Part shown: positions 1-7,987 of the stretch, piece by piece
Layout: each line of letters begins with the position of its first letter
Numbering within the stretch: position 1 is the stretch's first letter
NCBI GenBank assembly: GCA_017553665.1
Contig: JAFZKM010000323.1
Coordinates: 1 to 7,987, forward strand
Length of the DNA stretch: 7,987 nt
DNA from: Lachnospiraceae bacterium
Lineage (GTDB): Bacteria; Bacillota_A; Clostridia; Lachnospirales; Lachnospiraceae
Reading direction: 5' to 3'
Notes under the pieces: generated by a model
The model's database searches: none
What the model was told of the DNA's origin: nothing
What the model saw: only the letters and a program-made list of their open reading frames with translations
Position numbers and translations under genes: made by a program

Positions 1-20
1 GATGCAAGGGGAGGAATTTT

Positions 21-725
21 ATGAATGTTACTTTTATTGTAGCTTTAGTTGTCATAATTGGTCTCACTGTTCTGGGATATGTGCGCGGCCTCATCAAGTC
101 CGTGTGGCATCTGGCGGGGGCGATCATTATCATTGCGCTGACATTGATGCTTGCGCCTACGACCGCGAAGATACTGAATAATAACGAGAAGATCAGATCG
201 AAGGTCTATGAGAAGGTTAAAGAGACGATAAAGCTGCCTGAGGACGGTTTTGTGAGTCAGGACAAGATCGACGATAAGATCGAGGATATGAACCTTCCCG
301 CGGCGATCGAGGAGATGTTCAAGAAATATGTCAATGAAAAGGGTGACAGCGTAGAGAAGGCGCAGAAGGATATGGTCGAGACCTTTTACGATAAGGCTGC
401 GACCACAGTTATCACGGGATGTGCTTATGTTATCACGCTGATACTCGTGATCATCCTTTCGGCGATCGCGGTATGGCTGCTTGACAAGTTCTTTCAGCTT
501 CCGGGCCTCAACGCTGTCAACAAGATCGGCGGCCTGATCATCGGACTGGTTGAAGGCGTGATCATTGTTTGGGCTTTCTGCGGCCTTATATCCGTATTCG
601 CGGCGACTGAGACCGGCGCGACGATCATCGGACAGATACAGGAGAACCCGCTGCTCAACTATTTCTATGAGCACAATCTTATTTCAACCGTAATCTCGGC
701 TAAGCTTATGCTTTCCGCAAAATAA
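21..725 (+). CDS. CvpA-family integral membrane protein
   Basis: This 234-residue protein has the layout of the CvpA family (colicin V production protein type), whose biochemical role is poorly defined. Four membrane segments are visible at about residues 2-20, 29-46, 131-156 and 168-193. Segments 2 and 3 are separated by a charged, probably helical loop (about 50-128) that is longer than in the minimal family members. Family-like features are YVRGLIKS at 20-27 after the first segment, LNAVNKIGGLIIG at 163-175 entering the last one, and a C-terminal stretch ending near YFYEHNLI (214-221). The ATG is set by a strong Shine-Dalgarno site, GGGGAGGA at 8-15. The next gene starts 12 bases downstream, with its ribosome binding site touching this stop codon, so the two are probably co-transcribed. 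The family call is fairly sure; the function is unknown. CvpA proteins often sit beside envelope genes, which fits the downstream ExbB/ExbD-like genes. Confidence 0.82.
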   Translation: MNVTFIVALVVIIGLTVLGYVRGLIKSVWHLAGAIIIIALTLMLAPTTAKILNNNEKIRSKVYEKVKETIKLPEDGFVSQDKIDDKIEDMNLPAAIEEMFKKYVNEKGDSVEKAQKDMVETFYDKAATTVITGCAYVITLILVIILSAIAVWLLDKFFQLPGLNAVNKIGGLIIGLVEGVIIVWAFCGLISVFAATETGATIIGQIQENPLLNYFYEHNLISTVISAKLMLSAK

Positions 726-731
726 AGGAGG
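724..731 (+). promoter_or_regulatory. Strong ribosome binding site that fixes a TTG start
   Basis: AAAGGAGG at 724-731 overlaps the TAA of the CvpA-family gene and lies six bases before TTG at 738. The near-perfect match to the anti-Shine-Dalgarno sequence and the ideal spacing make TTG the start of the AIM24-family gene, and suggest its translation is coupled to that of the gene before. Confidence 0.8.
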
Positions 732-737
732 CATTCC

Positions 738-1556
738 TTGATCAGATCGGATCTGCTTAACGATACGCCGCTGCGCCGGAAGACCGAAACGCGCGGATGC
801 TTTTCAGTATACGAATACGAGCATGATGTCTCGGTAAATGAGTACAGCGCGATGATGGCTTATTTCGCGTCACAGATGAACGTGAGAAAGCGTCAGGTCA
901 TTGCGAAGCTTGAGAATTCAGCCGTTATCCTGCAGGCAGGCGCCATGCAGATGATGATGGGCGCGGTAGAGTCCACCACGGATCTAAAGGGCGCGGGAGA
1001 CTTCTTCAAGAAAGTCGTCGGAAGCACCGTGACCGGTGAGACAGCGATAAAGCCGCGATTCTCCGGCAACGGGGCAGTGGTCCTCGAACCGACCTACAAA
1101 TATGTGATCCTTGAGGATCTCTCTGAGTGGGACGGCAAGCTGGTAATTGAGGACGGCATGTTCCTGGCATGCGAAGATGGCATAGAGCTGTCCGTAGCGG
1201 CCAGAAATACCGTTTCCTCGGCTCTGCTCGGAGGAGAAGGTCTGTTCAATACCAGACTCTCCGGAAAGGGCATTGTGGCCCTTGAGAGCCGCGTGCCGCG
1301 TGAGGAACTGATAACGGTCGAACTGAAGGACGATGTGCTGAAGATCGACGGAAGCATGGCCGTGGCATGGTCCGACGGGCTGAGATTCACCGTAGAGCGT
1401 ACCACAAAGACGCTGATCGGTTCCGCCGTATCGAAGGAAGGTCTGGTCAATGTATACAGAGGCACCGGAAGAGTTCTGGTTGCGCCGGTAGATACCATGA
1501 TGTGGGATCCTTCGGTGCTGCTGCCCACAAAGGCGCCGACCAAAGGCAAAGGATAA
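738..1556 (+). CDS. AIM24-family protein (TTG start)
   Basis: This 272-residue protein matches the AIM24 / TIGR00266 pattern. It has no signal peptide or membrane helix, and it contains a beta-rich core with glycines at regular turns. Recognisable pieces are ILQAGAMQMMMG (64-75), the repeated turn segments beginning ETAIKPRFSGNG (101-112), EGLFNTRLSGKG (167-178) and EGLVNVYRGTG (234-244), and LKIDGSMAVAWSDGL (201-215). The three similar segments suggest an internally repeated beta fold. A lysine-rich tail (PTKAPTKGKG) ends the protein. Bacterial AIM24 proteins have no settled molecular function; the yeast namesake is a mitochondrial inner-membrane-associated protein. TTG is chosen because of the ideal Shine-Dalgarno site at 724-731. 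The gene sits 12 bases after the CvpA-family gene and 56 bases before the ExbB-like gene, so a role at the membrane with these neighbours is plausible but only inferred. The family call is strong. Confidence 0.85.
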   Translation: MIRSDLLNDTPLRRKTETRGCFSVYEYEHDVSVNEYSAMMAYFASQMNVRKRQVIAKLENSAVILQAGAMQMMMGAVESTTDLKGAGDFFKKVVGSTVTGETAIKPRFSGNGAVVLEPTYKYVILEDLSEWDGKLVIEDGMFLACEDGIELSVAARNTVSSALLGGEGLFNTRLSGKGIVALESRVPREELITVELKDDVLKIDGSMAVAWSDGLRFTVERTTKTLIGSAVSKEGLVNVYRGTGRVLVAPVDTMMWDPSVLLPTKAPTKGKG

Positions 1557-1612
1557 GCTTTTGATAAAGATTTTGTCGTTCGCTTGAACGGAACGGCAGG
1601 AATGGAGATATT

Positions 1613-2176
1613 ATGAAGGCAATCTGGGAACTGTGTTTCGGAGATGTTTCGAGCATCATATTCAATGTGATCATCATTGCGGCCGGCGTGATCATAATCC
1701 TGCAGCTGGCAGCGAGAAAAAAGGAGCTTGAGGCTGGACTTACCCAGCTGAGAAAGACTTTTCAGATCAAGCACAAGAAGTATACGACCGATGCGGAAGG
1801 TCTGCCTACGATCTCATCCGATTCGGGATATATCGATGAGGAAGACGTGCTGGCCATGAAGCGCCGCTTTGAAGAACAGTGCGCGGGAGTCGACACTCTG
1901 GTACAGCTGATACCCGTATTCCCTTCATTGGGAATTCTGGGAACCGTCGTGGGTCTGATGATGCAGATCAGCGCGGAGGGCATTGAGGGCATGACCGGAG
2001 CGATCGCTACGGCGCTCTCTTCAACGCTTTTCGCTCTTATCATGACCATCATTCTTAAGGCGTACACCGCGCTCAGGGTTTCGAGAACGATCAACGAGAC
2101 CGAGATCGAGTTCGCGGACAATGACAGATATCACCAGGAGTTTATTGAACTCAGAAAGCAGCATACAAAGGCGTGA
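1613..2176 (+). CDS. MotA/TolQ/ExbB-type proton channel protein
   Basis: This 187-residue protein is a small member of the MotA/TolQ/ExbB proton-channel family. These form the channel subunit of ion-driven motors that pair with an ExbD/TolR/MotB partner. Membrane segments lie at about 13-33, 97-119 and 130-152, giving the three-helix ExbB topology, with a charged cytoplasmic loop (34-95) between the first two. The hallmark is PVFPSLGILGTVVGLM at 101-116, followed by AIATALSSTLFALI at 130-143. Thr111 and Thr138 fall where ExbB and TolQ carry polar residues facing the proton path. It lacks the long cytoplasmic domain of flagellar MotA and the long tail of ZorA. The ATG has a GGAG at 1604-1607, five bases upstream. 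The partner gene starts four bases after the stop, typical of co-translated ExbB/ExbD pairs. The family is confident; what the channel powers is unknown, since no TonB or Tol gene is nearby. Confidence 0.88.
   Translation: MKAIWELCFGDVSSIIFNVIIIAAGVIIILQLAARKKELEAGLTQLRKTFQIKHKKYTTDAEGLPTISSDSGYIDEEDVLAMKRRFEEQCAGVDTLVQLIPVFPSLGILGTVVGLMMQISAEGIEGMTGAIATALSSTLFALIMTIILKAYTALRVSRTINETEIEFADNDRYHQEFIELRKQHTKA
2167..2176 (+). promoter_or_regulatory. Ribosome binding site deciding the ExbD-like start
   Basis: AAAGGCGTGA overlaps the stop codon of the ExbB-like gene and ends four bases before ATG at 2181. It differs from the ideal AAAGGAGGTGA by a lost base and supports starting the ExbD-like gene here, with translation coupled to its channel partner. 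Confidence 0.55.
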
Positions 2177-2180
2177 ACAT

Positions 2181-2741
2181 ATGAGAAACAGACATTCCAA
2201 AACAGATTTTGTCATAGACCTGACGTCACTGCTCGATGTTATCTTCATCGTGCTGCTCATCGTTATGTGCGGACAGAAGCTTCTTTCCGACGATACGAAA
2301 GAAGCGGCGGCAAAGGCTGAAGAGATGATCGAAGCGGCCGACGCGAGCATGAGAGAGTCAGACGCGCTGCAGGAGTATTACAGGCAGCACACCGAGGCCT
2401 TCGAGAATACCGAGCAGTACGTGAGATTCGTGGACGTTGTGGCATATTTTGATTCATCGACGAGGATCTCGGACAGGACCGTGATAGTAACGGCGGGAAT
2501 GGATGAAGGCACCGAGCTGGTAAAGATCCCCGTGACGGCGGCCAATGAGAAAGAGGGCTACGAGGCGCTCCAGAAGTATCTGACCGGCATCATAAACGAG
2601 GTCAATAACGGCGGCGCGCCCGTTCCGGTAATCCTTTCGCTGAACCGCGGAGACGACAGCATCCTTTACAGAGATGAGACAGCCATTTCAAATATATTTG
2701 AGTATCTCGCGTCTCAGTATGACAACGTATTTACAAGGTAA
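2181..2741 (+). CDS. ExbD/TolR-like partner of the proton channel
   Basis: This 186-residue protein has the layout of ExbD/TolR: a short basic cytoplasmic tail (MRNRHSK), one membrane helix (about 11-31), and an outer domain. The segment VIDLTSLLDVIFIVLL (11-26) carries Asp19 in the position of the proton-carrying aspartate of ExbD and TolR. Residues 36-75 are alanine- and glutamate-rich and probably form a coiled coil. The region 97-183 alternates strands and helices like the ExbD periplasmic domain, with VPVILSLNRGDDS (148-160) and YRDETAISNIFEYL (163-176) near the expected third strand and last helix. The start at 2181 is preferred over an in-frame ATG at 2121. It follows AAAGGCGTGA (2167-2176), it comes just after the previous stop, and the 20 extra residues from 2121 are hydrophilic, overlap the ExbB-like gene and have no ribosome binding site. 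It would work as a 5:2-type complex with the preceding product, by analogy to ExbB/ExbD. Confidence 0.8.
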   Translation: MRNRHSKTDFVIDLTSLLDVIFIVLLIVMCGQKLLSDDTKEAAAKAEEMIEAADASMRESDALQEYYRQHTEAFENTEQYVRFVDVVAYFDSSTRISDRTVIVTAGMDEGTELVKIPVTAANEKEGYEALQKYLTGIINEVNNGGAPVPVILSLNRGDDSILYRDETAISNIFEYLASQYDNVFTR

Positions 2742-2749
2742 GATCATTT

Positions 2750-3256
2750 ATGGATAAACCTCTTATTACACTTATCATCCTGATCGTTATGCTCACACTG
2801 CTGATATATGTGAGCGTCAGGAATCCCGCTAAGAATCCGCTGACGAGGCTGATCAGGATCATTTTGTTCCTCGGGCTCGTCATTGCGATAGTGATCATAG
2901 CCGTGAAGGAATACGGACCGAACGGAAAGAATCCCATCTTCTCGGAGGCCGGAAGGGGCGAGCACGAAGGGCAGGACGACAAACAGTCATCGCCGGGTGC
3001 CAGCGCCGAACAGGGCGGCGTGGTCTATGTCGAGGTGACCGTAAAGAGCTTTGAAGTAAGCTTTAACGGCGCTTCGTACGACTGCAGCGACGGCAGCTTC
3101 GAGAAGGCCGACGCGGCGCTTAAGGAAATGACGGAAGGCGGCAGAGCGTTCAGGCTTATTGACGATTACGCAGTTTCGTCGGTTTACCATCATGTAAAAG
3201 ACTTGCTGGCCGGAGAAGGCGCTTCGGTCGAGGAAATAAAGTTCGGACAGGAATGA
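2750..3256 (+). CDS. Membrane protein with diverged ExbD-like outer domain
   Basis: I do not recognise this 168-residue protein as a named family. Two hydrophobic helices (about 4-23 and 33-53) are joined by a short basic loop (SVRNPAKNPLTRL). A low-complexity charged linker (about 57-90, rich in Gly, Glu, Ser, Gln) follows, then a compact domain (93-166). That domain runs strand, strand, helix, strand, helix, strand: VEVTVKSFEVSFNG (94-107), a helix around 117-128, AFRLIDDYAVSSVYHHV (133-149), and a last strand VEEIKF (160-165). This order, and the DDYA...V segment entering the second helix, resemble the ExbD/TolR periplasmic domain (compare its usual ADKDVPY...V stretch). The two-helix anchor is unlike classic ExbD, and neither helix carries an obvious central Asp. 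The gene starts eight bases after the ExbD-like gene, with AAGGTAAG at 2735-2742 overlapping that stop. The gene call is good; the ExbD relationship is inferred from pattern only. Confidence 0.72.
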   Translation: MDKPLITLIILIVMLTLLIYVSVRNPAKNPLTRLIRIILFLGLVIAIVIIAVKEYGPNGKNPIFSEAGRGEHEGQDDKQSSPGASAEQGGVVYVEVTVKSFEVSFNGASYDCSDGSFEKADAALKEMTEGGRAFRLIDDYAVSSVYHHVKDLLAGEGASVEEIKFGQE

Positions 3257-3291
3257 GCCTGTAAAATACAACAGAAAGGCAGGGGATACGC

Positions 3292-3828
3292 GTGAAAAGA
3301 AAATACTGTATATTATTGGCGTGTGTTCTCTGCGCGATGCTGCTCACGGGCTCGATCTTCAGGGAAGCTAAGATCATTACTTACAACGGAGAGCCGCTGA
3401 TCGATCTTGATGAGCTGATCCACAGCAACGAGACCGGCCAGGAGGGAAGCGACGACGCAGGTGCTTATGTTACGCCTGTTCCCAAACCCGGAACCGGCGA
3501 AGAAGATCCGAATAAGCCTGACCCGCAGAAGACCGATATCGTTGAAACCGACGGCAGATTTGTGATCGAGATCTATAATAACGAGATCAGGGCGGGAGGC
3601 AAATCCTTTGCTTACGACAAGGCAACGAACTCGCTTAAGGAGAGGTCGATACAGGTACTTGACGAGGTGTTTAAGGATATCGCGGATAAGGAGATAGTGA
3701 TCGTCGGTGATTACGCCGAAGCCCACACGCTGCGCTTTACGGTTTCTTATATCCTTGAGAGATTTTCGGATTCGGCAGTGATAAAATATGAGCCTGAATT
3801 CGACAAGAACTGGGGGGTGAGCAGATGA
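3292..3828 (+). CDS. Membrane-anchored protein with ExbD-like outer domain (GTG start)
   Basis: This 178-residue protein begins with a basic tip and a hydrophobic stretch (about 5-23) that is either a signal peptide or an uncleaved anchor. A spacer follows, with a Pro- and Thr-rich part (60-82, including TPVPKPGTGEEDPNKP), and then a folded region (89-168). That region contains FVIEIYNNEIRAGGKSF (90-106), a helix near 114-130, KEIVIVGDYAEAHTLRFTV (133-151) and a final strand AVIKYEP (162-168). The order matches the outer domain of the preceding gene and of ExbD; both share a D-Y-A segment followed by an amphipathic helix. It therefore looks like a third ExbD-type module in the run. GTG at 3292 is chosen because AGGGGA (3281-3286) lies five bases upstream. 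The stop overlaps the next start by four bases (ATGA at 3825-3828), so the two are translationally coupled. No confident lipobox is present. The function is unknown. Confidence 0.7.
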   Translation: MKRKYCILLACVLCAMLLTGSIFREAKIITYNGEPLIDLDELIHSNETGQEGSDDAGAYVTPVPKPGTGEEDPNKPDPQKTDIVETDGRFVIEIYNNEIRAGGKSFAYDKATNSLKERSIQVLDEVFKDIADKEIVIVGDYAEAHTLRFTVSYILERFSDSAVIKYEPEFDKNWGVSR

Positions 3829-4829
3829 CACGGTTTGTTAAAAAGTCCGCGGCATTCATGCTGGTCTTTGTCATGCTGCTAGGCCTTATGACGACGAACG
3901 CCTCCGGATACAGCGGTATCGCGCTGGATGTTGAGGATACAAGGGTGTACCAGAGTACAACCGCCAATAAGCTCCTGGAGGCCTTTCTTTCGAATGCTTC
4001 CCGCGCGCAGAATACCTATGACGGTCATTATATGGTAGTCTACGCGAAGCTGACCGGAAAAGAAGGCAGCAATAAAGTGTTTTATATACGTGACAATGAC
4101 AATGACTACAGCAGGCACATCAAATGCACTTCCTCAAATGCTCTTTATCAGCTTTCGGGCATTGCGATAGGAGATACGGTAAGAGTTTTCGGAAAGATCG
4201 ATATCACGGACAATTTCTTTTCGACAGATATAACGATAAAAGCGGATAAGATCGAGACCACCGGCATGACGACGGCATCGGAAAGATCTTACATGACGGC
4301 TAACGGAGTCTGGATCGATAAGATATCGATGCTCAGCAGGAACATAGAGGGGAAGTTTTCGTACAAAATACCTTCGGGATGGTCGACGGTAGAGCATGAG
4401 CTTCCGAACGTTCCCGGATACCAGTATAAACTGAACGATCTGACGGGAGACGGGATAGCGGAGAGCCTGTTCGTTTTCTATGTGGATGAGAGCTATCTGG
4501 AGAAGCCGACCGATATATCGAGCATCAGTAAGGTAAGAAAAGCAATTGTCGAGAATATACTCTGCAACAAAAACCTGACGATGTACAGTTCGTATATCCC
4601 TCTTTTTGACAGGGATATAGAGATCACGAAGAAATCGACCGATTACGCGTCGTTCACCTATTACACGGGCAGTTATACGGAGCGAAACATCAACAGATAT
4701 AACCACAGAGTTGAGTTCGCGTTCATTGAAAATGACAGAAAAGACGGCGTCTGCGCGATCCTTTATGTCTACAACAACGCTGTCCACAAGGATGAGATAC
4801 ATCTTATGATGAGGATGCTCGCAGATTGA
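3825..4829 (+). CDS. Secreted protein with OB-fold-like domain
   Basis: This 334-residue protein has a clear signal peptide: a basic start (TRFVKKS), a hydrophobic core at 9-22, and a likely cleavage site near NASG (25-28). The mature part begins with a helix (43-62). An approximately 80-residue beta-rich segment (64-146) follows the pattern of OB-fold, tRNA_anti-like exported domains: HYMVVYAKLTG (68-78), VFYIRDND (85-92), a cysteine-containing strand (HIKCTSS, 98-104), and IAIGDTVRVFGKID (113-126). The second half (150-334) is an unrecognised alpha/beta domain with FSYKIPSGWSTVEHEL (178-193) and IAESLFVFYVDES (211-223), a pattern seen in exported domains that start with an amphipathic strand. 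The start overlaps the previous gene, with GGGGGGTGA at 3812-3820 as ribosome binding site. It acts outside the membrane and may be the load or ligand-binding partner of the ExbB/ExbD-like complex, but this is inference. Confidence 0.72.
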   Translation: MTRFVKKSAAFMLVFVMLLGLMTTNASGYSGIALDVEDTRVYQSTTANKLLEAFLSNASRAQNTYDGHYMVVYAKLTGKEGSNKVFYIRDNDNDYSRHIKCTSSNALYQLSGIAIGDTVRVFGKIDITDNFFSTDITIKADKIETTGMTTASERSYMTANGVWIDKISMLSRNIEGKFSYKIPSGWSTVEHELPNVPGYQYKLNDLTGDGIAESLFVFYVDESYLEKPTDISSISKVRKAIVENILCNKNLTMYSSYIPLFDRDIEITKKSTDYASFTYYTGSYTERNINRYNHRVEFAFIENDRKDGVCAILYVYNNAVHKDEIHLMMRMLAD

Positions 4830-4837
4830 AAAACCGC

Positions 4838-4866
4838 TTGACATCAATATTCATATTTTATAAAAT
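4838..4866 (+). promoter_or_regulatory. Sigma-70-type promoter of rny
   Basis: TTGACA at 4838-4843 and TAAAAT at 4861-4866 are separated by exactly 17 bases. The -35 box is a full consensus match and the -10 box matches five of six. The region around and after it is AT-rich. Transcription would start near 4872-4874, leaving a leader of about 55 bases. The -35 box begins eight bases after the stop codon of the secreted-protein gene. Confidence 0.82.
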
Positions 4867-4872
4867 TATACT

Positions 4873-4892
4873 GTTGTAGTGTGAACTGCAAC
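4873..4892 (+). promoter_or_regulatory. Predicted 5'-end hairpin in rny leader, GNRA loop
   Basis: GTTGTAGT (4873-4880) can pair with ACTGCAAC (4885-4892) as eight pairs including one G-U, closing a GTGA loop that fits the stable GNRA class. The predicted transcript start falls at or next to the first base of this stem, so the RNA would begin with a hairpin. Such 5' structures can protect mRNAs from decay. A T-run (4905-4911) follows 12 bases later, which is too far for a standard terminator. Confidence 0.45.
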
Positions 4893-4912
4893 CACAATTT
4901 AATATTTTTTTC

Positions 4913-4925
4913 AGGAGGTGCTCCT
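4913..4925 (+). promoter_or_regulatory. rny ribosome binding site within an inverted repeat
   Basis: AGGAGGTG at 4913-4920 is a near-perfect Shine-Dalgarno site, seven bases before the ATG at 4928. AGGAG (4913-4917) is complementary to CTCCT (4921-4925) across a three-base GTG spacer, so the site could fold on itself. Five pairs with a tight loop is marginal stability; an effect on translation is possible but unproven. Confidence 0.5.
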
Positions 4926-4927
4926 AA

Positions 4928-6490
4928 ATGGCAGCTTATATTGCAATAGGCGCACTTATTGGACTTCTTGTGGGCGGAGTTATCGCCTGGATCATTTCCG
5001 CGAAGAACGCGGTTAAGAAAAAGATTCAGGCTGATGAGGCTACCATCGGTTCTGCGGAGAGCAGGGCGAAGGAGATCATCGACGAAGCCAACAAGGCAGC
5101 TGAAGCCAGTAAGCGTGAAGCTCTGGTTGAGGTTAAGGAAGAGTCGATCCGTGCCAAAAAGGAACTTGATCGCGAGACCAAGGAACGCAAGGCAGAGGTT
5201 CAGCATTACGAACAGCGTGTGCTGAAGAAGGAAGAGACACTTGACCGCAAGATAGAGCAGAATGAAAAGAAAGAAGCCAGGATCGCAGCCAAGGAGCTTG
5301 AACTTGATCGCATCAGAGAGGAAATTGAAGCCACTCACGAGAAGCAGGTTCAGGAACTTGAGAAGATCTCGGGACTGACCTCCGAACAAGCTAAGGAATA
5401 TCTTATTAAAACTGTTGAAGATGACGTAAAGCATGAAACAGCCGTATTGATCAAGGATCTGGAGCAGAAAGCGAAGGAAGAGGCCGATAAAAAGGCCAGG
5501 GAGCTTATCATTAATGCCATCCAGAAGACGGCAGCCGATCATGTGGCAGAAGCTACTATCACTGTAGTACAGCTGCCCAGCGATGAGATGAAGGGACGCA
5601 TCATCGGTCGTGAGGGACGCAATATCCGTACACTCGAGACCATGACGGGCGTTGACCTGATCATCGATGATACACCTGAGGCTGTTGTTCTTTCGGCATT
5701 TGATCCCGTCCGTCGTGAGATTGCCAGGATCGCGCTCGAGAGACTTATCGTCGATGGCCGTATTCATCCGGCCAGGATCGAGGAAATGGTCGAGAAGGCA
5801 CAGAAGGAAGTTGAACAGACCATCCGTGAGGCCGGTGAATCCGCTCTCATCGAGACAGGCGTTCACAATCTCCATCCTGAGCTCGTAAGGCTTCTCGGTA
5901 AGATGAAGTTCAGAACCAGCTACGGTCAGAACGCGTTAAAGCATTCGATCGAGGTTGCGCTTCTTGCGGGACACCTTGCAGGCGAACTCGGACTCGATGT
6001 AAGACTTGCGAAGCGTGCGGGACTCCTGCATGATATCGGTAAGTCGATCGACCAGGAGATGGAAGGCACGCATGTACAGATCGGTGTTGATCTCTGCCGT
6101 AAGTATAAGGAGTCGAATATCGTCATTAACGCTGTTGAGGCGCATCACGGCGATGTCGAGTTCCAGTCGCTTATCGCATGCGTTGTCCAGGCCGCAGATA
6201 CTATCTCGGCAGCACGTCCCGGCGCACGCCGCGAGACGCTTGAGACTTATACCAGCAGATTAAAGCAGTTAGAAGATATTACAAATGGCTTCAAAGGGGT
6301 CGAAAAGGCCTACGCTATCCAGGCGGGTAGAGAGGTACGCGTTATGGTCGTTCCCGAGCAGGTTAACGATGACGAGATGGTACTTATGGCTCGCGATATC
6401 TCGAAGAAGATCGAGGAAGAGCTTGAGTATCCCGGCCAGATCAAGGTTAATGTCATCCGTGAGAGCAGGGTAACGGATTACGCAAAATAA
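4928..6490 (+). CDS. rny: Ribonuclease Y
   Basis: RNase Y is a membrane-anchored endoribonuclease that starts mRNA decay and processing in many Firmicutes, where it serves as the scaffold of the RNA degradosome-like network. This 520-residue protein has the standard length and order. An N-terminal membrane helix (about 5-24) is followed by a long charged coiled coil (about 28-200), a KH RNA-binding domain with [12 protein letters not shown] at 223-234, and an HD hydrolase domain. Metal-binding HD residues are visible: His339 (ALKHSIEVA), His368-Asp369 (LLHDIGKS) and Asp424 (AADTIS), with His406-His407 between them. No key motif is missing. The start is fixed by the strong ribosome binding site at 4913-4920. 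The gene has its own promoter at 4838-4866 and uses CGT and CGC arginine codons more than the operon before it, consistent with higher expression. It is followed by a perfect inverted repeat at 6507-6541. Identification is very secure. Confidence 0.97.
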
Positions 6491-6506
6491 TTAAATTGAA
6501 AACAGA

Positions 6507-6541
6507 TTAAGCTTCGAATTGCAACGCAATTCGAAGCTTAA
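6507..6541 (+). terminator. Perfect 16-bp inverted repeat after rny, possible terminator
   Basis: The arm at 6507-6522 (TTAAGCTTCGAATTGC) is a perfect reverse complement of 6526-6541, with a three-base AAC loop. It begins 16 bases after the rny stop. It would form a strong RNA hairpin at the 3' end of the message. No T-run follows on either strand, so it is not a textbook intrinsic terminator. It may be an RNA 3'-end stabiliser, a processing site or a factor-dependent terminator. Confidence 0.5.
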
Positions 6542-6542
6542 A

Positions 6543-6571
6543 TTGTATGTGGAAGGTTTTACCACATACAA
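6543..6571. repeat. 10-bp inverted repeat between rny and the aminotransferase
   Basis: TTGTATGTGG (6543-6552) and CCACATACAA (6562-6571) are perfect reverse complements around a nine-base spacer. It lies one base after the first inverted repeat and about 30 bases before the -35 box of the next promoter. It could be a second transcript-end hairpin or a two-fold protein-binding site. Confidence 0.55.
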
Positions 6572-6573
6572 CA

Positions 6574-6586
6574 GGCACGTAGTGCC
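6574..6586. repeat. Short palindrome upstream of the aminotransferase promoter
   Basis: GGCAC (6574-6578) and GTGCC (6582-6586) flank a GTA spacer, giving a 13-base two-fold element centred 21 bases before the -35 box. Its position suits a regulator site, but at five bases per arm chance cannot be excluded. Confidence 0.35.
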
Positions 6587-6600
6587 CTTGAAAAAAACTG

Positions 6601-6629
6601 TTGACATGGCAGAAGCGTTTCATTATAAT
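6601..6629 (+). promoter_or_regulatory. Perfect-consensus sigma-70 promoter of the aminotransferase
   Basis: TTGACA at 6601-6606 and TATAAT at 6624-6629 are both full consensus boxes with the ideal 17-base spacer. An A-run (6591-6597) lies just before the -35 box and may act as an UP-like element. Transcription would start near 6635-6637, giving a leader of about 62 bases before the ATG at 6698. Confidence 0.9.
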
Positions 6630-6638
6630 TCACCTTAT

Positions 6639-6667
6639 GTGGACGCGCGTGGCGCGCATATGTCCGC
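6639..6667 (+). promoter_or_regulatory. GC-rich leader hairpin of the aminotransferase mRNA
   Basis: The inner stem GCGCG (6645-6649) with CGCGC (6653-6657) closes a TGG loop. An outer stem GTGGAC (6639-6644) with GTCCGC (6662-6667) includes one G-U pair, and the two stems are separated by an ATAT bulge at 6658-6661. It sits at the predicted 5' end of the transcript and leaves the ribosome binding site (GAGGAA, 6685-6690) free. No riboswitch class is recognised. Confidence 0.4.
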
Positions 6668-6697
6668 CGCAGAAAAACAGAAACGAGGAAGTTCATT

Positions 6698-7894
6698 ATG
6701 CTGGGATTATCTGAAAGAGCTAAAGGGGTTAAGCCCTCATCCACGCTTGCCATCTCCGATAAGGCAAAGCAGATGAAGGCAAAGGGGATCGATGTAGTCA
6801 GCTTCGGAGCGGGCGAGCCCGATTTCGTCACGCCCAAGAACATATGTGAGGCAGCTAAGAAGGCCATTGACGAAGGCTTCACCAAGTATACCGCGGCCAG
6901 CGGTATCATGGAGCTCAAACAGGCTGTTTGCAGGAAGTTTGAGAGTTTCAATCATCTGCATTACGAGCCGAATCAGATCGTTATCAGCAACGGAGGAAAG
7001 CATTCGCTTTCGAATATATTTACGGCACTCATCAACCCCGGCGATGAAGTGATAATTCCCGCGCCTTACTGGCTCAGCTACCCCGAGATGGTAAAGCTCG
7101 TGGGCGGCGTACCCGTATTTGTGCGCTGCGAGGCGGATACCGGATACAAGATCACGGCAGAGAAGCTTGCTGCTGCGATCACTCCCAAGACAAAGGCATT
7201 CGTGCTCAATACGCCGAACAATCCCACAGGAATGATCTACGGACGTGAAGAGCTTGAGGCGCTCGCGAAGGTCATTGTTGAGAAGGACATTTACTGCATT
7301 TCCGATGAAATGTACGAGAATCTGATCTATACGGGCGAGGAGCCTGTGAGCATCGCGTCGCTCAATGATGAGATCTATAAGCGCACGATCACCTGCTCGG
7401 GTATGGCAAAGTCATACGCGATGACAGGCTGGAGAATAGGTTATATCGGTGCGGCACCCGAGATCGCGAAGGCTATCGGAAGCATTCAGTCGCATCAGAC
7501 CTCGAATCCGAACTCGATCGCTCAGAAGGCCGCGCTTGAGGCTCTCGACGGACCTCAGGACAGGGTAGCTTTCATGAAGGCCGAATTCATGAAGCGCAAC
7601 GAGCGCATGTACGAGCTTGTGAGCGCGCTGCCCTACATTAAGATGATCAAGCCCGACGGCGCTTTCTATGCTTTCGTGGATGTGAGCGAAACATTTGAAA
7701 AAAGCTGCAGGGGCAAGAAAGTCGGAGATGCGTTCGGTCTCGCTGACATTCTGTTAAACGATTACAATGTTGCTGTCGTACCCTGCTCGGATTTCGGTTT
7801 CCCTACGCATATCCGTCTGAGCTACGCGACCAGCATGGAGAACATAGAGAAGGGACTCGAAAGGATCGGAGAGTTCCTGAAGGCACTAGAATAA
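6698..7894 (+). CDS. aspB: Class I aminotransferase, probably aspartate aminotransferase
   Basis: This is a complete 398-residue pyridoxal-phosphate enzyme of aminotransferase class I/II, in the normal size range. It most likely transfers the amino group between aspartate and 2-oxoglutarate, giving oxaloacetate and glutamate in the cytoplasm. Visible hallmarks are SFGAGEPDF (35-43), KYTAASGIMELK (63-74), the cofactor contact NTPNNPTG (171-178), Asp203 and Tyr206 (SDEMYEN), the Schiff-base lysine Lys238 within SGMAKSYAMTGWRIGY (234-249), and the substrate-carboxylate Arg373 (HIRLSYA). QSHQTSNPNSIAQ (264-276) and the GGK at 99-101 are typical of the I-beta subgroup; in the Thermus enzyme of that group a lysine in this region is known to bind the aspartate side chain. 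Subgroup members also include prephenate or aromatic aminotransferases, so substrate is less certain than family. The ATG follows GAGGAA (6685-6690). It is a single-gene unit with its own promoter and terminator. Confidence 0.9.
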   Translation: MLGLSERAKGVKPSSTLAISDKAKQMKAKGIDVVSFGAGEPDFVTPKNICEAAKKAIDEGFTKYTAASGIMELKQAVCRKFESFNHLHYEPNQIVISNGGKHSLSNIFTALINPGDEVIIPAPYWLSYPEMVKLVGGVPVFVRCEADTGYKITAEKLAAAITPKTKAFVLNTPNNPTGMIYGREELEALAKVIVEKDIYCISDEMYENLIYTGEEPVSIASLNDEIYKRTITCSGMAKSYAMTGWRIGYIGAAPEIAKAIGSIQSHQTSNPNSIAQKAALEALDGPQDRVAFMKAEFMKRNERMYELVSALPYIKMIKPDGAFYAFVDVSETFEKSCRGKKVGDAFGLADILLNDYNVAVVPCSDFGFPTHIRLSYATSMENIEKGLERIGEFLKALE

Positions 7895-7900
7895 AACCCG

Positions 7901-7929
7901 CGGCGCAGCCTTTGGCTGCGTCGTTTTTT
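7901..7929 (+). terminator. Intrinsic terminator after the aminotransferase
   Basis: CGGCGCAGCC (7901-7910) pairs with GGCTGCGTCG (7914-7923) as ten pairs including one G-U, closing a TTT loop, and is followed at once by six Ts (7924-7929). It begins six bases after the stop codon. The A-rich stretch on its left (7894-7897) gives only a weak T-run for the other strand, so it mainly serves the + strand. Confidence 0.93.
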
Positions 7930-7930
7930 C

Positions 7931-7959
7931 TTGCGGCCCAAAACCGAAAATGCTATCAT
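7931..7959 (+). promoter_or_regulatory. Possible extended -10 promoter for the next gene
   Basis: TGCTATCAT at 7951-7959 is an extended -10 motif with TATCAT as the -10 box. A weak -35 candidate, TTGCGG (7931-7936), lies 17 bases upstream. A purine-rich GGAGAGGGGA at 7978-7987 ends the window and could be the ribosome binding site of a gene starting just beyond. Placement directly after a terminator supports the idea. Confidence 0.45.
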
Positions 7960-7987
7960 GAAGATATGTATAAAACCGGAGAGGGGA

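Follow-up and report, generated by a model that had tools for sequence, protein, structure and literature searches.

A conserved ExbB/ExbD-type gene unit with an extra anchored subunit in Lachnospiraceae and related bacteria

The stretch of DNA considered here (the window; 7,987 nucleotides, positions 1 to 7,987 on the forward strand of contig JAFZKM010000323.1, assembly GCA_017553665.1, from a Lachnospiraceae bacterium) carries a cassette of five genes, termed B, D, x3, x4 and S, which begins with a channel protein of the MotA/TolQ/ExbB family and a pore protein of the ExbD/TolR family. Comparison across related loci defines a core unit of B, D and one X protein, and the window holds an elaborated form of this unit, with a second X protein and S. 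The operon is conserved, looks constrained, brings an extra subunit of its own, and is found in bacteria in which neither Omp85 nor TonB was detected. We consider it somewhat likely that B and D together constitute a 5:2-family motor, powered by ions, which would act on the wall side of the membrane, with X as its transducer or partner. If this is true, outward ion-driven force transmission needs no outer membrane, and a unit of three genes is small enough for that to be tested directly. In the open-licence literature, no paper was recognised as describing a B-D-X(-X-S) operon. The five genes are as follows.

1613..2176, + strand: B, an ExbB/TolQ/MotA-like channel subunit of 187 amino acids, with Thr111 in transmembrane segment 2 (TM2) and Thr138 in TM3 as the presumed ion path.
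2181..2741, + strand: D, an ExbD/TolR-like pore subunit of 186 amino acids, with the membrane Asp19 in LTSLLDVIF and an ILYRDE motif in the outer domain.
2750..3256, + strand: x3, the first X protein, 168 amino acids, with two hydrophobic segments followed by an outer domain resembling an ExbD head.
3292..3828, + strand: x4, the second X protein, 178 amino acids, with a single N-terminal hydrophobic anchor or signal, a linker and an outer domain resembling an ExbD head (about residues 86-170).
3825..4829, + strand: S, an exported or anchored protein of 334 amino acids, with an OB-fold domain (about 36-147) and a PsbP/MOG1-like domain (about 165-334).

These open frames sit where a first-pass annotation of the window had placed them, tightly linked and all on the + strand, with successive gaps of 4, 8 and 35 bases and then an overlap of 4.

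B lies above the cut-off of the Pfam family MotA_ExbB (PF01618; 31.4 against 22.9 bits, expectation value (E) 1.8e-7), which bears out its first description as an ExbB-type channel, and its profile matches the solved structures of MotA, ExbB and TolQ, the best match being a MotA (E 3.6e-7). Two threonine columns of B align with the GTV of ExbB TM2 and with the threonine of TM3. The pair is invariant in 28 of 28 B proteins of a smaller set and in 110 of 110 of the full locus set, where a strict pattern recovers the first threonine in 108 and the second in 102 proteins and the remainder were read by eye from the sequences. By its profile score, and by a TM2/TM3 core with GT and T, B is a member of the MotA/TolQ/ExbB channel family.

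The start of D was taken at position 2181 instead of the mechanical start of the open reading frame at 2121, because most homologues in alignment A1 begin there; the membrane aspartate is thus residue 19. This Asp19, already pointed out in the first annotation of D as ExbD-like, aligns with Asp23 of TolR, in a short match with an E of 0.9 as a whole, and is kept in all 112 D proteins in which the helix is present (a strict pattern finds it in 106 of 113, the rest being judged by eye, and locus L006, in which D is cut before the helix, was left out of the count). Homologues of D number 433 at E≤0.001. The match of the window's D to the Pfam ExbD family (PF02472) covers the membrane helix only and stays below the cut-off (E 0.041; 14.4 against 25.4 bits), yet of the 40 sequences in alignment A1, 39 match this family at E≤0.1 (best value 1.7e-6), that of the window's D included. 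The same model gives no match at E≤0.001 in four carrier genomes, a possible reason for the system having gone unannotated. In a profile comparison with canonical ExbD, whole-length D scores 88.7% over 125 columns and the four best of 23 decoy families score at most 1%; the outer part of D alone reaches 33%, so that much of the match is due to the membrane helix. It is by this helix, with its ion-binding aspartate, that D fits the ExbD/TolR family. The ion path of TolQR is lined by TolR Asp23 together with TolQ Thr145 and Thr178, according to PMC12583513, and this coincidence of residues was counted in favour of reading B and D as an ion-driven motor.

The X proteins are of a different make-up. 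Neither x3 nor x4 matches any Pfam family above its cut-off, and a profile comparison shows the two to be homologues (probability 99.3%). The hydrophobic segments predicted from sequence, two in x3 and one in x4, include no acidic pore helix; an LTSLLD-type pore helix was found in none of 18 rows of alignment A8, and an acidic residue falls inside the predicted membrane segment, as judged by hydropathy only, in 4 of 172 X proteins. Because it has no pore helix, X is judged from its sequence not to be a third pore subunit. Its outer domain is probably ExbD/TolR-like. Against canonical ExbD heads the profile value is 31% for x3 (best decoy 1.9%) and 82% for x4 (best decoy 8%), and across all subsets of X heads it ranges from 31 to 88%, with best decoys of at most 10% (the four best-scoring of the 23 decoy families were examined for each query). 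The model of the x4 outer domain has a predicted strand (b) and helix (a) order of b-b-b-a-b-a-b and comes closest to TolR/ExbD, with TolR ranked first, but tied with unrelated folds. PF02472 is the commonest Pfam match among x4 homologues, and a weak one (4 of 34, best E 0.022); sequence searches of the PDB with the x3, x4 and S profiles gave nothing convincing. The earlier suggestion that the extra proteins fold like the outer domain of ExbD is thus probably right as far as the profiles go, and the strand-helix order that it ascribed to them is plausible for x4, from whose model that part derives.

The further suggestion of the first-pass annotation, that three different ExbD-like proteins make up one pore set, was not upheld: the LTSLLD helix belongs to D only, the anchors of x3 and x4 are plain, no relation between X heads and D heads was detected by profile (1-10%), and relatives with the minimal unit have a single X and lack S. 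One of the two main rivals to the transducer reading is nevertheless a related idea, in which X is a hetero-partner of D, their outer domains pairing above the ring to give an asymmetric axle, with the role of X limited to tethering or regulating D. The heads of ExbD and TolR, which X heads resemble, dimerise (PMC12905483), and X is encoded beside D in nearly all loci; we regard this arrangement as unlikely, given the undetectable similarity between the two kinds of head and the absence of the pore motif from the X anchor. The apparent layout of X resembles that of TonB and TolA. The X of the core form would consist of a basic cytoplasmic tail, one membrane helix, an acidic low-complexity linker and the head, and all 38 X proteins examined from the 42 B-D-X loci have a charge pattern, itself a rough measure, for an inner N-terminus and an outer C-terminus.

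The composition of the unit was established from its conservation in other genomes. When genome contigs were scanned with the D alignment, 71 loci were recovered, most of them under Lachnospiraceae titles and some from Oscillospiraceae, Ruminococcus and others; all come from metagenome-assembled genomes (MAGs) or uncultured organisms except three (L038, L044 and L059). Two of these three, Lachnospiraceae bacterium A4 (L044) and Butyrivibrio sp. INlla16 (L059), are cultured carriers of the five-gene form. Among the 71, the closest relatives come from one Clostridia MAG (L001, with 91% identity in D) and two Lachnospiraceae MAGs (L002, 88%; L003, 89%). When the genes of the window and these 71 loci were clustered (72 sequences, with a simple choice of open reading frames), the B cluster was present in 63 sequences, D in 60, x3 and x4 together in 60 and S in 53; among the flanking genes, the CvpA cluster was present in 3, AIM24 in 16 and RNase Y in 4. 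Profile searches, with loci from whole-genome searches added, then gave a set of 113, the window included and all found through D, from which copies of other loci (L123, L088, L090, L013, L138) and weak hits without B (L124, L155, L156, L157) had been dropped before counting. The order B-D-X(-X-S) holds without exception in these 113 loci, well beyond what chance would give and in keeping with the first annotation's expectation that the genes would be kept together in relatives. By form, 59 are B-D-X-X-S, 42 B-D-X, 4 B-D-X-X and 5 B-D (4 of them near an end), with two D-X-X-S loci cut at the contig start and one D alone near a contig start (L066). At least 1.1 kb of sequence follows in 13 of the 42 B-D-X loci and less in the other 29, which lie near the end of a contig or flank; three of the latter (L011, L018, L029) may be cut five-gene loci. 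Since the gene order never varies while the flanking genes do, the core is B-D-X. The gene that follows X in five B-D-X loci encodes a WG-repeat protein, a GH28, a CobW, a MatE and an FGGY kinase, respectively, with no common theme.

The association of X with D was followed in the order that contains the genome of L002, with the proviso, which applies to all the genome searches, that many genomes had only some of their first-look candidates scored. Profile A7 of D matches 36 of the 246 genomes of this order, and among 29 fetched loci besides that of L002, B precedes D in 29 (two share one B) and X follows D in 27. X profile A8 gives a match extending over the head (model position ≥146, E≤1e-6) in 33 of the 246 genomes, every one of them D-positive, and in 31 of these X lies beside D on the same contig; in the other two it lies at an apparent contig break (G728) or on a different contig from D (G748). 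For the three remaining D-positive genomes, X adjoins D in G701 and G721, and the locus of the third (G157) was outside the fetched set. At E≤0.001, X is matched in 61 genomes, the 28 weaker cases beyond the 33 being nearly all confined to anchor and linker. One of the weaker matches, in G840, does reach the head (model 14-147, E 3.6e-4), and this genome has no D match. Further afield, D was matched in 18 of 299 genomes of a family sample (profile A1), and with profile A7 in 6 of 245 genomes of the class and 2 of 398 of the phylum, only one of the latter being real (G001). Two of the class hits have B beside D (G001 and G974, the latter with locus L154); L124, L155, L156 and L157 have none. 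On plasmids, D had no tblastn match. By contrast, 101 of the 398 genomes of the phylum sample have canonical ExbD (PF02472), some of them in two or three copies (L091-L120).

Pairwise ratios of nonsynonymous to synonymous substitution rates (dN/dS) against L001 are 0.035-0.128 for B, D, x3 and x4, at dS of 0.7-1.6, and these four genes look to be under constraint; for S the ratio is 0.036 with dS saturated at 2.5, and against L002 neither x4 nor S yielded a value. These ratios bear on the possibility that the cassette is a vestigial or decaying Ton/Tol system inherited from a diderm ancestor, which had some encouragement from the description of Ton systems in monoderms as likely non-functional (PMC12204202). 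Low dN/dS, invariant ion-path residues and conserved extra genes all argue against decay, as does a tree in which B separates from 15 canonical ExbB with a support of 100 (a quick tree with long branches, in which 15 of 31 canonical rows were used). This explanation is already disfavoured and appears extremely improbable.

The unit occurs in gut bacteria with, it seems, a single membrane; motors of this kind are best known from bacteria with two. At E≤0.001, neither Omp85 (PF01103) nor the TonB C-terminal domain (PF03544) was found in any of 16 carrier genomes, as against 7 and 3, respectively, of 14 control genomes, which supports the initial idea of a stator-like system in a probably single-membrane host. 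An OmpA/MotB-type match is present in 11 of the 16 carriers, and because five have none, the unit seems independent of the flagellar stator.

From these observations a mechanism may be proposed. B would form a ring around two D helices in the cytoplasmic membrane, with a presumed 5:2 stoichiometry. An ion, the type of which is likewise presumed, would enter by way of Thr111 and Thr138 of B and Asp19 of D, and the outer part of D would move in response. X, probably an ExbD-type head on a plain membrane anchor of its own, would most likely dock at this motor and carry or receive the movement on the wall side, in a role comparable to that of TonB and TolA in diderms. The five-gene form has a second X, and its S, with OB and PsbP/MOG1-like domains, could be an outer client or adaptor. 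The other main rival takes the same parts, with their conserved ion-path residues, as a gated channel for ions or a sensor of the envelope that produces no mechanical output, through which ions pass only when the X head senses stress in the wall or surface. The outside location of the X heads and S would suit such a sensor, as would the patchy, accessory spread of the unit within the order (36 of 246 genomes). The characterised relatives within the 5:2 family do mechanical work (PMC9389320 and PMC12905483), and we think a sensor of this kind improbable. The motor reading may be extended to a motor class of single-membrane Lachnospiraceae and their relatives, in which the transducer would be an ExbD head on its own anchor and not a descendant of TonB or TolA, the target would be the wall or surface, and the five-gene form would add a second transducer and an OB-PsbP/MOG1 client. 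This fuller version is put forward tentatively, and we would lean slightly against it as a whole.

Around the cassette, the window contains the following further features.

21..725, + strand: a CvpA-like protein, outside the unit (PF02674, E 4.2e-18).
738..1556, + strand: an AIM24-family protein, an optional neighbour (PF01987, E 7.7e-41).
4838..4866, + strand: a promoter-like site between S and the RNase Y-like gene (TTGACA-17-TAAAAT, 11/12; a consensus match only).
4928-6490, downstream of S: an RNase Y-like gene, named by reading the sequence, without a family search.
6698-7894, after the RNase Y-like gene: an aminotransferase-like gene, named in the same way.

The promoter-like site likely marks the start of a new transcription unit after S. 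The dS of the RNase Y-like gene is 0.12 against L001 and 0.27 against L002, compared with about 0.7-2.5 for neighbouring genes, which could reflect strong codon bias or recombination. On the 3' side of this gene, a perfect 16-base inverted repeat with a 3-base loop was seen by eye at 6507-6541, without a T-run after it. A search of Rfam gave no match.

Both upstream genes had been considered possible members of the system, and neither proved to be required. The CvpA cluster is confined to the window, L001 and L002. AIM24 is optional; of the 16 sequences with this gene (the window, L001, L002, L005, L021, L025, L029, L034, L038, L045-L047, L051, L052, L056 and L064), 15 have it immediately before B, and in L025 it is one gene further off. 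Its distribution needs 7 changes on the B tree, counted over the 65 rows placed in the five-gene group, among which are cut loci. Eight loci have a MoxR - DUF58 - transglutaminase run upstream of the cassette, and eight have a DUF3298 gene downstream of it, seven being shared (MoxR run/DUF3298 loci L010, L016, L017, L022, L026, L032, L039 and L042; the names come from the L010 members alone, with DUF58 slightly below its cut-off). These genes recur, but in one set of loci, and were rejected as parts of the unit.

In L012 and its copy L013, the gene next after S encodes a protein with AAA-ATPase and PD-(D/E)XK nuclease domains, assigned from the L012 member; in L044 the corresponding gene lies near the cassette, upstream of B. 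The cassettes of L012 and L013, on separate contigs of a single MAG, have an identical B sequence and are followed immediately downstream by the same flank genes, owing to either a real duplication or an assembly artefact. The placement of the nuclease gene, together with a weak match of B to ZorA (E 0.002), raises the idea of a Zorya-like anti-phage motor. At 187 amino acids, B has no long cytoplasmic tail; none of the other four proteins has a ZorB hit, and x4 matches only PD-Lambda-5_A (E 0.04); and the nuclease cluster occurs in 3 of the 72 sequences, only some neighbours having been scanned. An anti-phage role of this type is accordingly very unlikely.

In one review, ExbBD is treated as a Gram-negative property, with Gram-positive relatives untested (PMC9389320). 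Compared with known members of the family, the unit shares a MotA/ExbB-type core with ZorAB of Zorya, from which it differs in the missing tail of B and in a D without a ZorB-like hit. With the flagellar stators MotAB and PomAB it shares a channel protein whose best solved match is a MotA; unlike them, the window's D has no match to PF00691, and hence no OmpA-type wall-binding domain of the MotB kind, and an OmpA/MotB-type match is altogether absent from five of the 16 carriers. The likeness to TolQ-TolR-TolA-Pal lies in the ion-path residues, which are the same, and in the x4 head, ranked first with TolR, and the difference in the hosts, in which no Omp85 was found; TolA, TolB and Pal were not among the genes of the window, and carrier genomes were not searched for TolA or TolB. 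Some Ton loci, for example in Xanthomonas, reportedly have two ExbD genes (exbD1/exbD2) next to a single ExbB. Those are diderm systems, and the extra proteins of the present unit have no pore helix. The ExbB-ExbD-TonB system likewise combines an ExbB-type channel and an ExbD-type pore protein with an aspartate with a third, single-pass protein that has a linker and a small outer head; in the 16 carriers there is no TonB_C or Omp85 match, and the head of the third protein is probably ExbD-like.

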